The notes beneath the pieces were generated by a model, which searched no databases, was not told the DNA's origin, and was given only the letters and a program-made list of their open reading frames with translations. Shown one piece after another: positions 24,661-33,574 of a DNA stretch of 54,010 nucleotides. Made by a program: the position numbers and the translations under genes. Positions within the stretch are counted from its first letter, which is position 1. Each line of letters begins with the position of its first letter. Origin of the DNA: an uncultured Candidatus Saccharibacteria bacterium (GTDB lineage Bacteria > Patescibacteriota > Saccharimonadia > Saccharimonadales > Saccharimonadaceae); the NCBI GenBank assembly GCA_947304395.1, contig CAMZBA010000007.1, positions 1-54,010 of the forward strand. The letters are read 5' to 3'.

Positions 24661-25161
24661 ATGTTTGATATTATTAACTTCTTCAGGCCGCGTAAGCCGG
24701 TGATGTTCGCGTTGGATACTTCGAGCAGCCACGTGGCGAAGCTGACCTATAAGGTTCGCGGCGATGCATGTGGGAATACTGTCCTCAGGACCGTATATGG
24801 GATTCCGTGCTCTTCAACGGCATTCGGAGCTCCGTGCGAGACTGTGATCGGGCTTGCGAGTTATGGCTTCGTGCGCGCCTACAGGAAAGGTAGGCGCATC
24901 GTGATCGAGAGGAATCCGTCAAAAACTCCTCCGGCAGAGGTGGAGAGCTGGCTCGTATGCCCCGATATGGCTCTCATGATTCCGGAGTACTACGGCAGCA
25001 ACCCTAAATCCGTATGCCCTTTCGGTGACGTCGAGGATCACTATGCGGAAGAGCATGAGTGGCCTCGGTACTATCTCGGCGATCTGGTTGTTTCGGATGG
25101 CGTTGAGGGGCGGAGGAAATTCTTCGAGGAGGTGGTAAAAAAGGTCTATAGCCCTAGTTAA
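24661..25161 (+). CDS. Accessory protein, paralogue of the next gene
   Basis: 166 residues, no known family. It shares a core with the following 243-residue gene: an aromatic-Gly motif then VR.YR (YGFVRAYRKG here), IER, PP....S.LV, PEYYG...KS and RYYLGD.V. No signal peptide or membrane helix is seen. It has its own promoter, an AGGAGG site about 12 bases before the ATG, and its own terminator. Five Cys residues are spread through it. GC content at third positions is higher than in neighbouring core genes. Confidence 0.7.
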   Translation: MFDIINFFRPRKPVMFALDTSSSHVAKLTYKVRGDACGNTVLRTVYGIPCSSTAFGAPCETVIGLASYGFVRAYRKGRRIVIERNPSKTPPAEVESWLVCPDMALMIPEYYGSNPKSVCPFGDVEDHYAEEHEWPRYYLGDLVVSDGVEGRRKFFEEVVKKVYSPS

Positions 25162-25180
25162 GCATAGCCCAGCAGTCACG

Positions 25181-25204
25181 GCCACGCAGTAGCGTGGCTT
25201 TTTT
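25181..25204 (+). terminator. Terminator
   Basis: Stem GCCACGC/GCGTGGC, AGTA loop, six T. Confidence 0.9.
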
Positions 25205-25227
25205 ATGGTTTCTAAAAAGTGTTTTAT

Positions 25228-25256
25228 TTGACTACTAGCGATATTTATTGTATAGT
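25228..25256 (+). promoter_or_regulatory. Promoter of the 243-residue accessory gene
   Basis: TTGACT, 17 bp, TATAGT (25251-25256). Confidence 0.7.
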
Positions 25257-25300
25257 CGAAACTATTGTAACTTTATTGCATGCTCTTTAGGAGGTAAAAA

Positions 25301-26032
25301 ATGGATAGAAAACGATTGGCATTGTTTATTTTGCCTCATTCTTGCGATTTGGATGAGGATATTGGCCCTGAATTAAGGCGGGACTGGGCGGCTATTCACT
25401 ATGTAAGTCCGAATATAACTTCGGCGATAGAACTGCTCGGCACTGCTCAGAAGCGAGCGAAAGATGGTAAAAATGAAGCAAGATGGAGTTTTGATGAGGT
25501 TGCTTCTATGAGCCTGCCGCCTACGGTGTCGCCGGATATTATATTTGGCGTAACTCCTATAATGGTTGAGCGAAACCACATTAAGCGCCCGCTTCTCTTT
25601 GAAGATCTAGACAGCGTTTATGGCGAGGGAGCGAAGGGGCGCTTTTGTTGTAGTCTTTCGGATTTTGGCTACGTCAGGATTTATCGCGCGCGTGGCGCAA
25701 CTGGAAGAGTCGACCCTTACGACAAAGATGCAATACGGCGCCAGTTTCGGATTGAGCGCGATTTGAGCTATATGCCGCCCGAAGATTGCGTAAGCTTCCT
25801 TGTGCGAATCGGGGTAGACGCGAATGGTGTGGAAGCGACAGAGTTTTACCCCGAGTATTATGGTATTGACTGGAAGAGCCATACGTGGACCGGTTATAGA
25901 AATGCATATCCATATTTATGCCGTAGTAGCAAAAGATATATGCTTGGCGATACGGTGTATTATGAGTACTTTTTATACTCCGATGACTTTGTTGTCGGCG
26001 TGGCAAAAATATTGATGTCTTCCGGCGAGTGA
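25301..26032 (+). CDS. Accessory protein, longer paralogue of the preceding gene
   Basis: 243 residues, no known family. Its C-terminal two thirds carry the same ordered motifs as the upstream gene (FGYVRIYRARG, IERDLSYMPPE, SFLVRIG, FYPEYYGIDWKS, KRYMLGDTV). The N-terminal 70 residues are extra and look helical. No signal peptide. AGGAGG sits six bases before the ATG. The unit is closed by a terminator at 26066. The pair probably arose by tandem duplication followed by strong divergence. Confidence 0.7.
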   Translation: MDRKRLALFILPHSCDLDEDIGPELRRDWAAIHYVSPNITSAIELLGTAQKRAKDGKNEARWSFDEVASMSLPPTVSPDIIFGVTPIMVERNHIKRPLLFEDLDSVYGEGAKGRFCCSLSDFGYVRIYRARGATGRVDPYDKDAIRRQFRIERDLSYMPPEDCVSFLVRIGVDANGVEATEFYPEYYGIDWKSHTWTGYRNAYPYLCRSSKRYMLGDTVYYEYFLYSDDFVVGVAKILMSSGE

Positions 26033-26095: not shown

Positions 26096-26140
26096 TACTT
26101 TGACAAATATTGCAAGAATGCTCCAGATGATGCATGAGCA

Positions 26141-26169
26141 TTGCCTGAGCGCTGAAGTCATGTTATAAT
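26141..26169 (+). promoter_or_regulatory. Promoter of the helical-repeat gene
   Basis: TTGCCT, 17 bp, TATAAT (26164-26169). AGTCATGTT (26156-26164) abuts the -10. Confidence 0.7.
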
Positions 26170-26248
26170 ATTCGGGATTCATAGGTTTGAGTTGCTCATT
26201 AATAGTACTTATATGTTTTTGAGGAGCTTCATTTTTTATTGGAGGTAC

Positions 26249-28135
26249 ATGATGGGACTAATGGAAGACTATAGGGAACTAAGGTATAACGAAGGTCGAC
26301 GGGCGATGTTCGTTAGTCAGTGCTTACAGACGGACCCCGGTTTTAATGTTGTAATTCTTGCGGCATTGCGGGATTATGATGAACAAGTGCGAGGCGAGGC
26401 TGTGATGAGGTATCTTGACTGCGATATTGTGCAGCGAAAGGCTATTGTTCCGACGGACATGTTGCGCTCGTTAATTTTATCTGCGAGCGTAGACGACGGC
26501 CTGCTTGCTGTACAACTTCTTCCTGGTAGAGACGATATCGAGATCAATACCGTAAGGGCGCTTTTTAAGGATGGCGAATACGAAATCCTCCAAAGAATGG
26601 CTAGCTATTACAGGAAGCTGTCTCTGCCCGATAAGGAGGCGCTCTTCTCTTTAGGTGAGATTGAAGAAGAGATTTCCGAATCAAGAGGCCGTAGCGACGT
26701 TGAAGGAATATGGTCGAGTATGTTCTTGGCGCTTTCGTCGGAAAAAGGTGGCGAGGCAACGGAACGTACGAGGCGGGCTGCCGGTATCTATATCATGGCA
26801 TCTAGTAGCTTGAGTGATTGTACTGGTGTGGTCGTCGAATATGACGTGAGACTCGACTACGAAATGACAGAAAAGATAGCGCAGCTGTTCATGGAGTCTG
26901 ACGATAAGGGCAACATTAATTCTCGTAGGAGAATCATGACGATTCTTTGCGAACATGTCGATGAGTCGTCAATAACGAGCGACGTGCTGCAGGAGTGGCT
27001 GAGCGATTACTCTAGTAATGATTATATTCTGACGGAGCTGGCTGTTACTTTGATAGCGGATAAAAAGGTTGATGGGGAGAATATATGTTACGATGAGTTT
27101 TATTGGCCGTATTTGCGTCATATAGTCAATTTTATCGTGGACGAGAAAGATAAGAATGTCCGGCTAGATTACGAACAGCGCTTCAAGAAGGCTTGTGAGC
27201 TGTATGAAATGTTTTCTTTAAGCCAAAAGATGGCGGTTGCGCCGGAAAGACATGACAATACTTATGATGCTATTCGATACCGAATAGACGAAGGGGTCGT
27301 GTGTCAGTACATGATTGCCCATTTGTGTTATGGCCGGATAGACCTGGAGGACGATACGCTGGCTCTCGTTTCGAAATATATTTCAAGAAAGGCTCACTTC
27401 AATATCTTCCGTCGATCGCTAAATTCAATATATGTGGCGAAAATCGATAATAATATTGATAAAGAATGTATTTCGAAAGCGGATGACGACCCCGAAAGAG
27501 AAAAAGAACTTGAAAGGCTCGTTGATATAATTCGCCGGCTAATTGTGTTGGATCGTTCTGTGGTTTCAGAATCAAAACACGGAAACGTAAGCGATACTGA
27601 ACGCAATGTGATGTACGCGGTGCTCGAAAGTATTCCCTCTTGTGTCGATAATATTGTTGAAATTGCGAACATGGCGAATATTGATGCTGCAAGCATCCTT
27701 CAGTTGCCTCAGATAAAAGGACATCAGAAGATAATCGCCGCCCTTCAGTTAATTGCTGCAGGAAAGGTTTGTAAAGGTGCGATTGTTTTATTGAAAAGGA
27801 ATAAAAGCACTTGGGCACAAATTACTAATAATATGATTCTCAATATGAGCAAAAGCGATTGCCCTGAGGCGATTCTTTTTGCGGTTGAGATCAGCGAAAT
27901 GTTCGGGCGCGATGTTGCCTTCCGCGAGGAAGTAATCTTCTATGCTATTAGCGGTAGTGATGTGACGGTAAGGGGGCAAGTTATTGCTCCGGTGATTGAA
28001 AAAATCGTCAATGATGATGAATTGCGTCAAAGCGCAAGGATGTATTGGGCGCTCCTGTTTGGGTTACAAGGATTGGATTGCGATAGTGTGGAAAGGGCGA
28101 GAGATACAGTTGCCTCCATGCTTTTCGTAAAGTAA
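26249..28135 (+). CDS. Large alpha-helical, HEAT-like repeat protein
   Basis: 628 residues. No catalytic motif is recognised. The sequence is almost wholly helical, with recurring 30-40-residue helix pairs (for example AALRDYDEQVRGEAVMRYL and SGSDVTVRGQVIAPVIEKI), typical of HEAT-like scaffolds that bind proteins or nucleic acids. The start at ATG 26249 follows GGAGGTAC; an in-frame ATG 57 bases upstream lacks a site. No membrane segments. It is the largest accessory cassette, has its own promoter and terminator, and lies next to the end of the ubiquitin-like operon on the other strand. Confidence 0.7.
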   Translation: MMGLMEDYRELRYNEGRRAMFVSQCLQTDPGFNVVILAALRDYDEQVRGEAVMRYLDCDIVQRKAIVPTDMLRSLILSASVDDGLLAVQLLPGRDDIEINTVRALFKDGEYEILQRMASYYRKLSLPDKEALFSLGEIEEEISESRGRSDVEGIWSSMFLALSSEKGGEATERTRRAAGIYIMASSSLSDCTGVVVEYDVRLDYEMTEKIAQLFMESDDKGNINSRRRIMTILCEHVDESSITSDVLQEWLSDYSSNDYILTELAVTLIADKKVDGENICYDEFYWPYLRHIVNFIVDEKDKNVRLDYEQRFKKACELYEMFSLSQKMAVAPERHDNTYDAIRYRIDEGVVCQYMIAHLCYGRIDLEDDTLALVSKYISRKAHFNIFRRSLNSIYVAKIDNNIDKECISKADDDPEREKELERLVDIIRRLIVLDRSVVSESKHGNVSDTERNVMYAVLESIPSCVDNIVEIANMANIDAASILQLPQIKGHQKIIAALQLIAAGKVCKGAIVLLKRNKSTWAQITNNMILNMSKSDCPEAILFAVEISEMFGRDVAFREEVIFYAISGSDVTVRGQVIAPVIEKIVNDDELRQSARMYWALLFGLQGLDCDSVERARDTVASMLFVK

Positions 28136-28167
28136 GCCGCTCTAGGCAAAAATAAGTACAAAAAAAT

Positions 28168-28193
28168 AACCAGCCCTTTTGGGCTGGTTTTTC
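28168..28193. terminator. Terminator of the helical-repeat gene
   Basis: AACCAGCCC/GGGCTGGTT with T on the plus side and A on the other, so it may act in both directions. Confidence 0.9.
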
Positions 28194-28206
28194 TTTGGAG
28201 TAAAAG

Positions 28207-28230
28207 CCGGCCCCGCGGAGGGGGCCGGTA
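28207..28230 (-). terminator. Terminator of the Ubl gene
   Basis: On the minus strand CCGGCCCC/GGGGCCGG followed by CTTTT, about 30 bases after the Ubl stop. Confidence 0.75.
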
Positions 28231-28257
28231 GGAATTCATGGCGGTGGCGGTCGGGGC

Positions 28258-28692
28258 TTATCCGTTTCTGGGACGATTTCCGACCTTGATCTCGTCTCCG
28301 TCTTTCAGGAGATAATTGTCACTGATTGCCTCTCCGCCAATCAGGGCAACCCAGCCGGGATTCAGAGCGATCTTGTTCTGACTTGCGAGCTGTGACCAGG
28401 TTGTGCCAGGAGTGAAGGCGAATGATCTCCTCTTCTTTCCGGGGAGCAGCACGGTAACTGATCCAGACGATCCTGTTGCCTTATTCTCTGCAGGGGTCTT
28501 CGCCGCTGCGGGGGTCTCTGCTGCTGCGGGATTCGTCGCGGGAGCTTCGGCTGCTTCTGTCGTTGTAGGATTTTCTGCAGGAGCCTCCGTTGTCGGGGTG
28601 GTTTCTGCTGCTTCAATTGCCGCTGCTGCAACGGGCTGTGCGGGTGTTGCTTTCTTAGCGGCGGTGCTTCTGGTGCCTTTCTTTCTTGCCAT
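28258..28692 (-). CDS. Ubiquitin-like beta-grasp protein with disordered N-terminal arm
   Basis: 144 residues. Residues 1-10 are basic; about 11-77 are an Ala/Pro/Thr/Glu-rich low-complexity arm; 78-138 fit a ThiS/MoaD-type beta-grasp fold, starting SVTVLLPGKK and ending YLLKDGDEIKV, a standard last strand of such folds. The protein ends in Asn-Gly, so a terminal Gly is exposed without processing; there is no Gly-Gly. AAGGAGG lies seven bases before the ATG. It has its own strong promoter and is the last gene of the E2-JAMM-E1-Ubl set. Best explanation: the modifier conjugated by the upstream enzymes. A sulfur-carrier role is an alternative. Confidence 0.72.
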   Translation of the reverse strand: MARKKGTRSTAAKKATPAQPVAAAAIEAAETTPTTEAPAENPTTTEAAEAPATNPAAAETPAAAKTPAENKATGSSGSVTVLLPGKKRRSFAFTPGTTWSQLASQNKIALNPGWVALIGGEAISDNYLLKDGDEIKVGNRPRNG

Positions 28693-28771
28693 ATGCTTTC
28701 CTCCTTTTTAAAGGTGCCATGCCGGGATAAAACCGGCACATGTGTAGAGCCTGTCTTGATAGACTTTTCCT

Positions 28772-28800
28772 ATTATAAATTATTATTGGCTAAGTGTCAA
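28772..28800 (-). promoter_or_regulatory. Separate promoter for the Ubl gene
   Basis: Minus strand TTGACA (28795-28800), exactly 17 bp, TATAAT (28772-28777). A hairpin TGCCGG/CCGGCA (28720-28738) follows in the leader, before the ribosome site. A separate promoter fits a modifier needed in excess over its enzymes. Confidence 0.8.
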
Positions 28801-28817
28801 TAGTAATTTATTTTTCA

Positions 28818-29498
28818 TTAGGCAAATGGTTTTTGCTCTGCGAAATAAAAAGTTTCTTCAATTCCGTCACTATACATATCACGAAGAGTGTCGTTAGTGT
28901 AGCATGCGACTATGTGCCCTGCCAGGGCTGCTGCCGCAAAGGCAATATACGGTATATTTCTCGCTCCGCATACTTCCTGCACGGCTTCCTCATCGGAATA
29001 AAGCCATGTACTCTCGTAGATGTCGACGGCCTTATCGTCAAGCGGGTCGACTATGAGCACGGTCAAGCTTGTTCCAGACGATCTCAAGTCTACGTATAGG
29101 GGGACCATAGGACTATTCTTTACGGCAGTCCATACTTTTTTTCTGGCTCTCATGCTGTCGAGCCCAGAAATTACGATGCCATCAAACTCGGCGGTCTCGT
29201 CAACAAATACTTCGTGTTTTTCGATATGCGCATCGCTTGAGGAACGTAAATATGCGAAGGTATTCGCCGCAGCCTCGACTTTGGGCTTCCCTATATCTCT
29301 ATCGCTATACATGGGTTCTCCGGGGCCGTTGTGATCTTCCAGAACGTCCTTATCATAGACATGGATGTCCTGTACGCCCATAGTGGCGAGGCAGATAATC
29401 ACGGCATTTGTTGCGCCGCCTGCTCCGACTATATGGATGCTTGGGCAGTTGTTTCGATTGAAAAGCTGCGTTTGATCTGCGTAATTAAAAATCTCCAT
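28818..29498 (-). CDS. E1-like ThiF/MoeB-family adenylating enzyme
   Basis: 226 residues, a single ThiF-fold domain. Visible: nucleotide loop IHIVGAGGATNAV (Gly25-x-Gly27-Gly28), acidic turn VYDKDVLEDHN (Asp49, Asp51, Asn57), DIGKPKVEA (Lys71, Lys73) and GLDSMRAR (Asp114, Arg117). Late in the domain VCGARNIPYIAF carries Cys177, a candidate thioester cysteine. The Zn-binding CxxC pairs of MoeB/ThiF are absent, and there is no fused E2 domain as in Cap2. It would adenylate the C-terminal Gly of the Ubl. It overlaps the JAMM gene by 14 bases and is preceded by AGGAGG, so they are co-transcribed. Confidence 0.82.
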   Translation of the reverse strand: MEIFNYADQTQLFNRNNCPSIHIVGAGGATNAVIICLATMGVQDIHVYDKDVLEDHNGPGEPMYSDRDIGKPKVEAAANTFAYLRSSSDAHIEKHEVFVDETAEFDGIVISGLDSMRARKKVWTAVKNSPMVPLYVDLRSSGTSLTVLIVDPLDDKAVDIYESTWLYSDEEAVQEVCGARNIPYIAFAAAALAGHIVACYTNDTLRDMYSDGIEETFYFAEQKPFA

Positions 29499-30306
29499 CG
29501 TTATTTACTGCGACCTCCTCTTCTTCGAACAGTCGCGGGTCGTACCCGCCGTCATAGTCAGTATAATCATCGTCGTTAAAGGGTACGCCGTAACCATAAT
29601 AATTGCGGTCGTCCGCGGCGTCTCCTTCTTTTTGGCGACTGCTTTTGATCAATGCCGGAAACCCTGCAGCTCTTTTAGCGTTAGTGGCGCCCGTGAATGC
29701 TGAAACTCGTCGTATCTGTTTGAGTAGCTCAGAATAACTACTTGCAAATTCCTCCGAAAATTCGAGTTCAACTCTGACGTTTGCGGTTCCGACCCGAATA
29801 TTCTTGCCACAGACATCTGAGAAAAAATCGATTCTGGCCAGCATCTTGCCATAGTTGTTTATGACGAGATTGATCCTGTACGGACCAAGCCAGTCTTCGA
29901 TGTCTTGTTCGTCTACCGCCGACCAACACGCATCCATATTCGCGTGGCTGTGGCCGTGGAGCGTTAAGAATTCAAGCTCTTCATCGGAGGCAATCTCGCA
30001 GACTGGCATATCGTATTGCACGCCGCAATGTGAAGCGGTCTGGGATGGTATGTAGATTTTTTTCAGACGAAAAGTCGTTTCGTCGCCGATTATCTCTACT
30101 ACGCCCTCGAAGGCAAATTCATATGGATGTACCTGTTGCCGGATATATAAAAGGATAGCATATATAGACATGGGTATTTTCAGTTTAAAGTCCGGTACTG
30201 GTCCATACTGGTCTCGGTTGGGCGATGACATAGTAAACGGTTCGCTGACCGGCATTTTTGATGCGATGCTCCGCTGTTTGGTAGTATTAAAATACTGTTT
30301 TGCCAA
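29485..30306 (-). CDS. JAMM (Mov34/MPN) metallopeptidase
   Basis: 273 residues. The JAMM signature is complete: His119-Ser-His121, seven residues, Ser129, two residues, Asp132 (HGHSHANMDACWSAVD). The Glu partner is probably Glu63 or Glu67 in HPYEFAFEGVVE. Such zinc enzymes cut isopeptide or peptide bonds after a ubiquitin-like C terminus, so it would remove or process the Ubl. The C-terminal 50 residues are acidic and Tyr-rich. The start appears to be TTG, two bases after the E2-like stop, with AAGGGGG lying inside the preceding gene; an internal ATG (residue 18) is an alternative. Confidence 0.85.
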   Translation of the reverse strand: MAKQYFNTTKQRSIASKMPVSEPFTMSSPNRDQYGPVPDFKLKIPMSIYAILLYIRQQVHPYEFAFEGVVEIIGDETTFRLKKIYIPSQTASHCGVQYDMPVCEIASDEELEFLTLHGHSHANMDACWSAVDEQDIEDWLGPYRINLVINNYGKMLARIDFFSDVCGKNIRVGTANVRVELEFSEEFASSYSELLKQIRRVSAFTGATNAKRAAGFPALIKSSRQKEGDAADDRNYYGYGVPFNDDDYTDYDGGYDPRLFEEEEVAVNNDGDF

Positions 30307-30308
30307 TT

Positions 30309-31163
30309 TTAAATTAACCCCCTTTCTGTCAGATAAGCATTTAATGCTCCAATAGCTTCATCGTTTGCCTCGGCTTCTTTGAAGCAGTTCGGTATGTCCT
30401 TGAAGTGTTCCTCCCTTATGGAATGGAAGCAATGATCCATGCGAATGAGTGCCTCTACGAAGCGGCGCTCGCCTATTAGGTCATGGATTTCTGCATTTAA
30501 ACTTCCGAAGCAGAAGCTGTCGTCGCCGTATGTGTAGTAAGGATACCTGCTACCCCAGCTTCGGGGGGTTGTTTTTCTTACTCTTTGTGCGATATCGGCG
30601 GACCCTATATCGAAATCAGGATTAAATCGAACCTCGACATCACCCAAATCGTATATCTTTCCTTCGTATGGATAATATACTCTGAAAAGCAATATAGGAT
30701 ATAGTTTTTCTGCATCGCTGACCTCATACCGAATGGATCTTAGCCCCCTCAATAGGACAAGATTCCTCCAGTCTTGCTGAAGATCATTGTCTTGCTCTAT
30801 GTTCTTATTGCGGATGAATGTGGTTATGCGCCGAATTTCGTTATTGAAATGCGCATAATCTCTATGAGCCTGAGAGATTTGTTGTCGTAGCTGATTTCGT
30901 TCTTCGCAGCTAGCTTTATTCAGTCTAGGCCTGAGCTCAACAGACTGTCTCCTAGCCTCATTGGCGCCTTCTCGAGCGTTCTGGAGACTTTCTTCGAGTG
31001 GAATCATGTCGTAATATACTCGAAAATACTCTTCGCGCTTTTCTGGCGTGTCAATCACTTCGCGCCCGTATTCGGCGAGGAATTGTGCGGCGACCTCAAG
31101 AGTCTTCCGACTATTCTTGTCGTTGGGGTTGATGATTGATCCCAAATATTCTTTTAATGCCAC
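30309..31163 (-). CDS. E2-like conjugating protein with coiled-coil N terminus
   Basis: 284 residues, GTG start after AGGGAGGGG. Residues about 55-125 form a charged coiled coil. From about 150 on it resembles prokaryotic E2-fold proteins: beta strands around YPILLFRVYYPYEG and VEVRFNPD, then RYPYYTYGDDSFCFG, which matches the E2 pattern of HP(H/N) followed a few residues later by a Cys next to Leu/Phe-Gly, and a helix RRFVEALIRMDHCFHSI. Cys218 is the candidate active cysteine. The usual HPN is YPYY here. The assignment relies on this pattern plus its neighbours E1, JAMM and Ubl. First gene of the operon. Confidence 0.65.
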   Translation of the reverse strand: MALKEYLGSIINPNDKNSRKTLEVAAQFLAEYGREVIDTPEKREEYFRVYYDMIPLEESLQNAREGANEARRQSVELRPRLNKASCEERNQLRQQISQAHRDYAHFNNEIRRITTFIRNKNIEQDNDLQQDWRNLVLLRGLRSIRYEVSDAEKLYPILLFRVYYPYEGKIYDLGDVEVRFNPDFDIGSADIAQRVRKTTPRSWGSRYPYYTYGDDSFCFGSLNAEIHDLIGERRFVEALIRMDHCFHSIREEHFKDIPNCFKEAEANDEAIGALNAYLTERGLI

Positions 31164-31210
31164 TATTGTTTGCCCCTCCCTTCTTGGAATTGAAAAATGT
31201 AAAGAAACTA

Positions 31211-31272
31211 CACGCCGTGCATTAATGCAGGCGTGCTTTCAATATAATAATATAATTATGTAGTGAAGTCAA
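31211..31272 (-). promoter_or_regulatory. Operon promoter with a palindrome at the transcript start
   Basis: Minus strand TTGACT (31267-31272), 17 bp, TATTAT (31244-31249). The expected start, near 31237, is followed at once by the inverted repeat CACGCC-TGCATTAATGCA-GGCGTG type (31211-31235, one unpaired base). It could be an operator or a 5' stem-loop that protects the mRNA. Confidence 0.7.
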
Positions 31273-31297
31273 TAATTAACGGGGGCGGTGACGAATG

Positions 31298-33574
31298 CTA
31301 TTTCTTTGCAGCGCTCTTTTTGGTGGCCGTTCGGCGTTTGGTTGGGCGGCGCGTCTTCTTGGGCTTGTTGGCGAGGTATTCCTCTGCCTGCTCTTTTGTG
31401 ACGGTTTTTGGATCGACGTCCTTGGGGATACGCACAAAATTGCGGCGGCCAGGGCCTTTGACGTATGGTCCGTAGGCGCCTTCTATGATTTGAATTTCTC
31501 CCCAATCGGCTATATAAGAGTCGCGTTTTTTCTCATAGAGCGGTTCGGCTTCTTCTAATGTAATAGTGTATGGATCAAATTCTTTGCCGAGTGGGATATT
31601 ATATTTGCCACCTTTTAGATATGGACCGAATGGGCCGGCGGCGGCAATAATCTCGGCGCCATCTTTTGCTTTGCCGAGTAGCCGTGGTAATTGTGGCAGG
31701 TCGAGTTGCTTGAGGGCTTGCTCTAGGGTGACAGTCTTGACGCTTTTGCGTTTTGGCAATGGCGCAAAGACAGGTTTTTCGCCGGATTCTTTTTCGTTTT
31801 CGCCTAGTTGGATAAAACCACCGTTTTTGCCTACTTTCGCGTAGATGGCTTTGCCGGTTTTAGGGTCATGTCCAAGTAGGCGAGCATTATTGTAGCGCTC
31901 GATGCCTTCACTGGCTAGAACCTCGTCATTAAAAGGACCGTAGAAATCGCGAAGCATTTTGACGCGGTCGAGCTTCGCGTCGGCGATTAGGTCGAGGTCT
32001 TTTTCGATATTGGCAGTAAACTTGTAGTCGACAATATTTTTGAAGTTATCGGTCAGGAAGCCTGAGATAAGTTCGCCAATTGGCGTTGGCAGCAATTTGC
32101 CTTTGTTGGCGCCGAACTTTTCTTTGACGGTCTCTTTGCTGATTTGGTTATTCTCGAGCTTTAATTCGGCGACTTCGCGTTCTTCGCCCTCGCTTTCGCC
32201 CTTTACGACGTAGCCGCGGGCCTGAATTGCGGTCATGATGCTAGCGTAAGTACTTGGACGGCCAATGCCGAGCTCTTCAAGCTTCTTGACCAGTGAGCCT
32301 TCAGTATATCGCGCTTGTGGTTTAGCAAAGCTTTGGCGAGCGATGATACTGTGGGCTGTGAGCTTGTCACCGACTTTGTAATGTGGGAGTTCATTCTCTT
32401 TAATGCGGCCATAGACTTTCAGAAAGCCGTCGAAGGTTACGATTTCTCCCTTTCCGATAAAGTTGTATTCGGTCGGTGTAGCTATGGTGATGGTAGTACT
32501 TTCGATGCGAGCGTCGGCCATTTGCGTAGCAAGTGCGCGGCCACGAATTAAAGCGTAGAGGCGCTTTTCGTAATCGTTTTTGCCAGCAGTTTCACGGTTG
32601 ATGTCGGTTGGGCGAATGGCCTCGTGCGCTTCCTGAGCGCCAGCGGATTTAGTCTTAAAGTTGCGTACTTTGACGTATTCTTTGCCAAATGTAGATTCGA
32701 CATAGCTAGCCATGCTAGCGATAGCTTGCTTGCTAAGGTTAAGACTGTCGGTGCGGTGGTAGGTAATAAGGCCGGCTTGATAAAGAGATTGAGCGGCCTG
32801 CATAGTCGTGCGCGTAGAATAGCCAAGCTTACTGTTGGCCTCAATCTGCATCGAGGCGGTCGTGAAAGGCGGGGCGGGCTTGCGCGTACCGGGGGTAGTC
32901 TCGACGGCGCTAGCGGTAAAGTTTGCATTGATCAGTTTTTCGAGGAAAGCGCGCGCTTCGTCTTCGGTCTCGAATTCATGATTAAGCTTAGCATCAAATC
33001 CGAAATCGCCAGAAACCTTATAGGTAAACTTGCTAGCGAATTTTTCGATCGCCTGTTCCCTTTCGACGATTAGGCGGAGGGCGGGGCTTTGGACGCGTCC
33101 GGCCGAAACGGCGCCAGGAACTTTCTTGCGTACGACGCCCGAGAGGTCGAAACCGACTAGCATATCGAGAGTTTGGCGTGCCTGCTGCGATGAAACCATG
33201 TTCATGTCGACAGTGCGGGGGTTTTTGATAGCTTCTTCGAGTGCGGACTTGGTGATTTCATGGAAAGTAATACGAGCAGTATCCTTTGGCAACTTAAGAA
33301 CTTCACATAAGTGCCAAGATATAGCTTCTCCTTCGCGGTCTTCATCCGTCGCGAGCCAGATTTTGTCTGCAGATTTAGCGGCCTTTTTAAGGTCAGTAAT
33401 AACACTCTTGTGCCCAGGGTCAACTTCATAGGTGACGTCAAAAGTATTCTTATCGACCTTCGTGTCTTTGCGAATATGTCCAACAGAAGCTAATACGACA
33501 AAATCTTTACCGAGATATTTCTCGATGGTATGAGCTTTAGCTGGGGACTCTACGATAACTAAGTTTTTACTCAT
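31298..33574 (-). CDS. topA: DNA topoisomerase I
   Basis: Type IA topoisomerase that relaxes negative supercoils. 758 residues. TOPRIM domain with LVIVESPAKA and DEDREGEAISWH; the catalytic Tyr is in GLITYHRTDS; the remaining type IA domains follow. The C terminus has two or three TopoI repeat units (GPFGPYLKGGKYNIP, GAYGPYVKGPGRRNF) and a Lys/Arg-rich tail ending KKSAAKK, with no cysteine zinc fingers. TATTAT is seven bases before the ATG (leaderless). It follows the accessory operon on the same strand but has its own promoter. Confidence 0.96.
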   Translation of the reverse strand: MSKNLVIVESPAKAHTIEKYLGKDFVVLASVGHIRKDTKVDKNTFDVTYEVDPGHKSVITDLKKAAKSADKIWLATDEDREGEAISWHLCEVLKLPKDTARITFHEITKSALEEAIKNPRTVDMNMVSSQQARQTLDMLVGFDLSGVVRKKVPGAVSAGRVQSPALRLIVEREQAIEKFASKFTYKVSGDFGFDAKLNHEFETEDEARAFLEKLINANFTASAVETTPGTRKPAPPFTTASMQIEANSKLGYSTRTTMQAAQSLYQAGLITYHRTDSLNLSKQAIASMASYVESTFGKEYVKVRNFKTKSAGAQEAHEAIRPTDINRETAGKNDYEKRLYALIRGRALATQMADARIESTTITIATPTEYNFIGKGEIVTFDGFLKVYGRIKENELPHYKVGDKLTAHSIIARQSFAKPQARYTEGSLVKKLEELGIGRPSTYASIMTAIQARGYVVKGESEGEEREVAELKLENNQISKETVKEKFGANKGKLLPTPIGELISGFLTDNFKNIVDYKFTANIEKDLDLIADAKLDRVKMLRDFYGPFNDEVLASEGIERYNNARLLGHDPKTGKAIYAKVGKNGGFIQLGENEKESGEKPVFAPLPKRKSVKTVTLEQALKQLDLPQLPRLLGKAKDGAEIIAAAGPFGPYLKGGKYNIPLGKEFDPYTITLEEAEPLYEKKRDSYIADWGEIQIIEGAYGPYVKGPGRRNFVRIPKDVDPKTVTKEQAEEYLANKPKKTRRPTKRRTATKKSAAKK

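Follow-up and report, generated by a model that had tools for sequence, protein, structure and literature searches.

Several described bacterial systems rely on the chemistry of ubiquitin-activating (E1) enzymes, ubiquitin-conjugating (E2) enzymes and JAMM peptidases. In the type II cyclic-oligonucleotide-based anti-phage signalling system (CBASS), Cap2 is a fusion of E2 and E1, conjugation acts on the CD-NTase and a gene for a ubiquitin-like protein (Ubl) is lacking. The bacterial ISG15-like (Bil) system comprises the four functions Ubl, E2, JAMM and E1, with two Ubl domains in BilA, a CEHH motif in BilB and, in BilD, a Cys domain as well as two adenylation domains of which one is inactive (PMC11354881). 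Bacterial ubiquitination-like (Bub) operons are often preceded by the regulators CapW, CapHP or CapKS (PMC13373217). The ParB-related, ThiF-related cassette (PRTRC) probably corresponds to type 6d among the operons described by Iyer et al. 2006 (PMC1779556), an equation that is our own; the 13 plasmid PRTRC cassettes read here were mostly ordered (ParB)-E-C-F-B-A-ThiF, corresponding to Ubl, F, E2, JAMM and E1. The present analysis concerns four genes of an uncultured Candidatus Saccharibacteria bacterium, encoded on the minus strand at positions 28258-31163 of a 54,010-nucleotide stretch of contig CAMZBA010000007.1 (hereafter the window) in the gene order E2-like, JAMM, E1 and Ubl. Saccharibacteria possess some of the smallest bacterial genomes, and the organism carrying this locus is a very small, probably host-dependent bacterium. 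We consider it probable that the four genes constitute a self-contained and reversible Ubl-protein conjugation system, located on an accessory island and most likely devoted to conflict or stress.

The four open reading frames encode an E2-like protein of UBC type (284 residues, GTG start, 30309..31163), a JAMM/JAB metalloprotease with extra tails at both ends (273 residues, 29485..30306), a single-domain E1 of ThiF fold (226 residues, 28818..29498) and a Ubl (144 residues, 28258..28692) made of an Ala/Thr/Pro-rich arm (residues 1-75) and a beta-grasp domain (77-144). As the original prediction had stated, the E2 and JAMM genes are separated by only two bases and the JAMM and E1 genes overlap, here by 14 bases; the E1 and Ubl genes are 125 bases apart. 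When the four proteins were scanned against Pfam, the sole family over its cut-off was ThiF, in the E1 (PF00899, 54.8 bits). Judged by sequence comparison, the set is not a chance arrangement, because the order E2-JAMM-E1-Ubl is repeated in about 20 other loci, co-occurrence is near-perfect across 394 genomes and the ratio of nonsynonymous to synonymous substitutions is 0.06-0.17 for JAMM, E1 and Ubl in a comparison of two relatives. These other loci belong mostly to Saccharibacteria and display short gaps or overlaps, the E2 gene coming last in one of them.

The E2 search of 101 relatives detected homologues in 8 other genomes, two of them in one genome, and the other module genes adjoin. A scan with the E1 profile of one genome per species (84,980 species) yielded 23 loci, a lower bound given the narrow search pattern, mostly from Candidatus Saccharibacteria, the others being a few bins that bear the label Nomurabacteria or Adlerbacteria, two Methylomirabilota and one Rubrobacter; these names are the depositors' labels and the bins may be mixed. 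The E1 was found in 6 of 380 genomes sampled from the phylum and in 25 of 394 genomes of the organism's own family. Within this family, the 24 genomes with the E2 all contain the E1, as do 20 of the 21 genomes with the JAMM. It should be noted that one genome, G670, encodes a JAMM of the family (C10:16538-17083) with neither an E1 nor an E2 match. Thus the reading of these genes as a four-member E2-like, JAMM, E1 and Ubl set, put forward from the window alone, is borne out by the reading frames, by the order conserved elsewhere, by co-occurrence and by the folds described below.

The E2-like protein is composed of N-terminal helices and a coiled coil (residues about 1-120) followed by a UBC domain (about 124-284), in which the candidate catalytic Cys218 lies within YPYY-x5-FCFG. 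This cysteine is invariant in 19 Saccharibacterial E2s, whose motif reads [YH]PxY..GFCFG and includes no HPN, while the relatives from Rubrobacter, Methylomirabilota and other Patescibacteria have HPHxxxxGxxC[LW]G. Comparison of the Saccharibacterial group with the HPHxxxxGxxCLG group by hhalign gave a probability of 98.4 and an E-value of 1e-14 with the cysteines aligned. Since this profile comparison joins the [YH]PxY and HPH groups, YPYY is by alignment the counterpart of HPN, and its presence in place of HPN, already pointed out in the original prediction, proves to be a genuine family-wide feature linked to the HPHxxxxGxxCLG relatives. The AlphaFold model displays a long helical and coiled-coil part, a helix (124-136), strands at 141-148, 154-166, 169-179 and 192-196, then the loop carrying Cys218 and helices at 220-231, 235-246 and 251-260. 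Taken in blocks along the sequence, the predicted local distance difference test (pLDDT) score is about 79-90 for the strands but drops to 53-69 in the loop that leads to the cysteine. In the model, the order of these elements is that of a UBC domain, alpha-beta4-alpha with the cysteine after the fourth strand.

In agreement with this topology, a search of the PDB sequences with a profile of the E2 domain (27 rows, of which one, L075, was cut at the wrong cysteine) returned 15 matches, with E-values of 0.09-0.88 (up to about 0.9), and 12 of these 15 are named ubiquitin-conjugating enzymes. The matches include UBE2A and UBE2L3, and the cysteine is in register in the alignments displayed. Taken one by one these profile matches are weak, and it is the agreement among them that carries weight. 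An E2 fold for the 284-residue protein is thus suggested both by the predicted UBC topology and by the enzymes that the profile finds. A VIA-align comparison of the whole E2 model, in which the coiled coil again dominated, gave no significant match and had no E2 among the matches shown. In one gene (L028:2402-3727, the same as L019:6120-7445), the E2 comprises two UBC-like units and no membrane helix, and its second unit seems to have lost the cysteine (..DSGFGKDYR..).

Hydropathy analysis predicted at least two membrane helices before the coiled coil in 14 of the 16 complete canonical Saccharibacterial E2s, and none in the window E2 or in its sister E2 from genome G021. Such helices in the canonical E2s imply that conjugation would take place at the membrane, and they would agree with a Ubl that is attached to proteins of the membrane or surface (or to lipids, as with ATG8) in the service of epibiotic life and not of defence, for example to control pili or host contact. 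This explanation appears unlikely, however, as no membrane helix is predicted in the window-type or non-Saccharibacterial E2s read, and the patchy occurrence of the module in the family fits poorly with a function in the core lifestyle.

Regarding the Ubl, AlphaFold supplied with 22 natural sequences predicted a beta-grasp domain over residues 77-144 with a pLDDT of about 95 and left the first 75 residues unstructured, in keeping with the fold and the disordered arm proposed at first. The best PDB matches of the model were Caldiarchaeum ubiquitin and SUMO1, and the Ubl profile matched SAMP2 (3e-5). The protein ends with R-P-R-N-G, and this native Asn-Gly end is kept across the Saccharibacterial Ubls: Asn-Gly is found at or near the end in every Saccharibacterial locus, as NG in most and as NGC, NGR, NGQ or NGQI in five. 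All five loci with residues after NG have a JAMM, a distribution which, although the numbers are small, would fit a JAMM with a second task in Ubl maturation. In the modules devoid of JAMM (L037, L039, L040, L041, L113 and L116), E2, E1 and Ubl are present and the Ubl ends at Gly in all. A mature Ubl end was considered as a mark of the JAMM-less modules and was not retained; the data are consistent with it, but most JAMM-containing modules end at Gly too. One Ubl (L075:4384-4995, minus strand) comprises two beta-grasp-like stretches and a tail after NG with a Cys-rich CHNCG motif.

The Ubl gene is preceded by a sequence matching the sigma-70 promoter consensus at 12 of 12 positions (TTGACA-17-TATAAT, 28772..28800, minus strand), the counterpart of which in the sister copy of G021 is TTGACA-17-TACAAT. 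A promoter-like site matching at 10 of 12 positions (TTGACT-17-TATTAT, 31244..31272, minus strand) lies before the E2-JAMM-E1 genes, and a terminator-like hairpin with 8 GC pairs and a T-rich tail lies after the Ubl gene (28207..28228, minus strand). The Rfam search found no RNA family. The set and order of the four-gene operon first described are therefore maintained, but the Ubl gene is not simply its fourth cistron, because it is 125 bases away from the E1 gene and has a consensus promoter of its own. This separate promoter probably points to an excess of the modifier over the enzymes.

In the JAMM protein, E63, H119, S120, H121, S129 and D132, which make up the E...HxH-x7-S-x2-D pattern, are invariant across 18 members, 16 of which are matched by the Prok-JAB model, and the JAMM profile matched Rpn11, AMSH and archaeal JAMM1. 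Similarly, two of the glycines in the GxGG loop are invariant across 23 E1s, as are D49, D51, N57, K73, D114 and C177. The residues proposed earlier as catalytic (Cys218 of E2, Cys177 of E1 and HSH-x7-S-x2-D of JAMM) are thus all present and unchanged among the homologues. The E1 is a single ThiF domain of 226 residues standing alone, as first described, and no CxxC zinc pair occurs in any E1 of the set. In E1 trees, the window and G021 copies share a long branch that lies within the Saccharibacterial clade. In G021, the sister module has an E1 (L012:6459-7757, minus strand) that is a tandem duplication whose halves are 90% identical in DNA, the first half being without the catalytic cysteine and the second with it; it looks as if the event by which eukaryotic E1s acquired their inactive and active halves had recently happened anew.

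The E1 profile matched UBA3, UBA7, MccB and ThiF, and the closest models in the curated libraries were ThiF/MoeB/UbaA. This proximity, the SAMP2/ThiS-like character of the Ubl and the possibility that Cys177 acts as a ThiF-type persulfide cysteine would suit a sulfur carrier, in which the E1 makes a Ubl thiocarboxylate for cofactor or tRNA thiolation and the JAMM merely trims the Ubl. We regard a sulfur carrier as very doubtful, however, given the co-occurring UBC-like protein with its invariant cysteine, for which we know of no role in sulfur transfer. Moreover, local synteny apart, the neighbourhoods of the modules have no gene family in common, and the E1s have no CxxC.

The closest named system is PRTRC, and not Bil or Bub. 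PRTRC shares with the module the core order E2-JAMM-E1, a Gly-ended Ubl (in about half of the C proteins as annotated), a JAMM (protein A) and a stand-alone single-domain E1, and its E2 candidate has the motif P..N...G.xC.G. By contrast, PRTRC includes the ParB, E and F genes, was read on plasmids and has its Ubl before the E2. Profile comparison supported a relation for JAMM with PRTRC A (probability 95.3, E-value 2e-8) and for E1 with PRTRC ThiF (98.6, 9e-16), while no significant match was obtained between the Ubl and PRTRC C profiles. Homology of the E2 to PRTRC B is not claimed, since hhalign found no significant similarity, even if the cysteines are in register over a short stretch. The NCBIfam cut-offs were far missed (19 bits for PRTRC_A with a cut-off of 101.8, and 30.2 for PRTRC_ThiF with a cut-off of 144.75), and the PRTRC_B and PRTRC_C models had no match in the window. 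In the E1 trees, the PRTRC clade (100/99) is separate from the clade of the module family (91/98, or 99/94 with the phage E1s), and in one tree it adjoins the module clade with weak sister support (95/45). The module is alike in parts but is not a member of PRTRC, because its proteins stay below the cut-offs and the modules have no ParB, E or F gene beside them; the separate E1 clade is in line with this assignment. A literature search for PRTRC with ubiquitin returned nothing useful.

The shared core order with a Ubl nearby, the JAMM and E1 profile matches and the weak adjacency in the E1 tree could also be explained if the module were a chromosomal offshoot of PRTRC that helps to maintain or partition mobile elements and is not a defence system. 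The absence of ParB, E and F, the missed cut-offs, the lack of a significant match for E2 and Ubl and the chromosomal site of the window module, beside topA, make this somewhat less probable still than membrane tagging.

The original prediction had likened the set to Bil and Bub, and this likeness holds for the four functions Ubl, E2, JAMM and E1, which Bil also has, but not for the architecture: the Ubl here has one beta-grasp domain, the 226-residue E1 has one ThiF domain and there is neither a CEHH motif nor a Cys domain like that of BilD, so the module does not belong to Bil. Bub is likewise a bacterial ubiquitination-like operon, and the E1 profile gave a modest match to Citrobacter BubCD (9ea4, 2.9e-7); regulators of the CapW, CapHP or CapKS type were not seen at the window module. 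Type II CBASS shares the E1, E2 and JAMM chemistry, and membership was rejected, with E2 and E1 as separate genes and no CD-NTase among the neighbours.

Relatives of the module also occur in phages. A search of viral contigs with an alignment as query identified 14 E1 relatives, while single-sequence scans of these contigs found nothing. The JAMM gene precedes the E1 gene in most of the viral contigs, many of which also have an E2 with HPH..C[LFW]G ahead of the JAMM, so that the module order is kept. The IMG/VR contigs L132-L142 carry E2-JAMM-E1 clusters with an E1 of the module clade, the JAMM motif and, in several E2s, HPHxxxxGxxC[LFW]G. These clusters differ from the Saccharibacterial module in having HPH instead of PxY and in that a Ubl, ending with GGD, was found in one contig only (L132). 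Crass-like and related phages, including Bacteroides phage DAC15 and Dulem virus 41, encode an E1 and a JAMM of the module clade, and the gene that precedes JAMM and E1 in the crAss-like phages (DAC15_90 in DAC15) has a CLG motif, making it a candidate E2. The viral loci of both kinds, clusters in contigs and phage genes, are L132-L143, L146 and L147. Viral and cellular E1s are interleaved in the E1 tree, where those of phages and of Patescibacteria fall into a single clade (99/94). By sequence, the module represents one sub-type within a broader family of Patescibacteria and phages. Our literature search, of limited coverage and thus no proof of novelty, retrieved no paper linking crAss-like phages to ThiF and one unrelated mention of ubiquitin; a search for Patescibacteria with ubiquitin-like proteins returned nothing useful.

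The four genes, together with a fifth, occupy an accessory island of about 5.2 kb (26097..31316) bounded by the terminator of a 243-residue protein gene and the 3' end of topA. In two relatives (G036 and G005), the 243-residue protein gene is directly followed by topA, and topA and the next conserved gene are 98-99.7% identical to those of the window; homology to these genomes ends at window position 26096 and restarts at 31317, so that 5.2 kb are absent there. The fifth gene (26192..28135, plus strand), convergent with the other four, encodes a 647-residue protein that had no library match and in which HEAT-like motifs were recognised by eye only. Of 45 genomes in the genus, it was found only in the two that also carry the window-type module, and this restricted distribution and its place on the island led us to propose it as a fifth component, a refinement of the four-gene scope given at first, in which the four themselves stand. 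We would guess that this HEAT-like protein is a sensor, an adaptor or an effector.

G021 carries two modules, one canonical and one of window type, on either side of topA. Between the window and G021, identity is 93% for the flanking genes, 43-64% for E2, JAMM and E1 and 33% for the 647-residue protein. The empty site in near-identical relatives and this fast divergence against conserved flanks make the island look like an accessory, fast-evolving cassette that is gained or lost. Before the island, two mutually related proteins (about 32%) of 166 and 243 residues (24661-26032) vary among relatives, and the stretch between topA and a 343-residue protein gene is a variable site.

Presence or absence of the island between near-identical genomes, the contrast in identity between module and flanks, the patchiness and the precedent of Bil and type II CBASS are all compatible with anti-phage defence proper, in which the Ubl would be attached to phage or host proteins on infection. 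We hold this to be a serious but somewhat less than even possibility, as known defence genes do not adjoin, no PADLOC system is matched and the phage-borne relatives suggest that phages put such modules to uses of their own. The broader role in conflict or stress, with anti-phage defence as the first guess, is the most likely one, given that the module has a patchy distribution, comes or is missing as a whole, evolves fast and is also found in phages; membrane tagging ranks second and PRTRC-like maintenance third.

Several results weigh against a conjugation system with a role in conflict. Foldseek matches of the whole E2 model were not significant and mostly concerned coiled coils, the list being taken up by matches to the N-terminal coiled coil, although the UEV domain of TSG101, an E2 relative, is among the weak matches. 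The Pfam and NCBIfam E2 models matched no member of the E2 family, and four genomes of the organism's family have E1 and E2 without JAMM, so that some modules lack this peptidase gene. No defence gene recurs beside the modules, and the defence libraries gave no match beyond generic E1-E2 models and no PADLOC system. No gene common to all modules beyond the four was found beside them, where only local synteny repeats.

The conjugation reading of the original prediction nevertheless gains support from the predicted UBC topology, the predicted beta-grasp and the homologues found together in conserved order. The Ubl would probably be made in excess from its own promoter and, ending natively in Gly, would need no trimming in the window system. 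The E1 would bind ATP, adenylate the Gly carboxylate of the Ubl and take the Ubl onto Cys177, from where it would be passed to Cys218 of the E2 for attachment to amino groups of targets. The JAMM peptidase would remove the Ubl and, in relatives with residues after the Gly, also trim it. Each of these catalytic steps is likely by analogy with established E1, E2 and JAMM chemistry, and the gene set, its order and co-occurrence, the invariance of the catalytic residues, the predicted Ubl and E2 folds and the nature of the island are directly supported.

Taken together, these results give an even chance that we are dealing with a distinct Ubl-conjugation family of Patescibacteria and phages, crAss-like phages included, apart from Bil, Bub, CBASS and PRTRC, with a Saccharibacterial branch in which the E2 is membrane-anchored and one sub-type whose gain or loss involves an island of five genes, a HEAT-like partner among them. 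The full set of E1, E2, Ubl and JAMM would show that ubiquitin-like tagging can fit into a cassette of 3 kb whose parts have one domain each. Bacterial E2s anchored in the membrane, a separately promoted Ubl and clade-mates in phages open the way to direct tests of tagging and of movement between viruses and cells.

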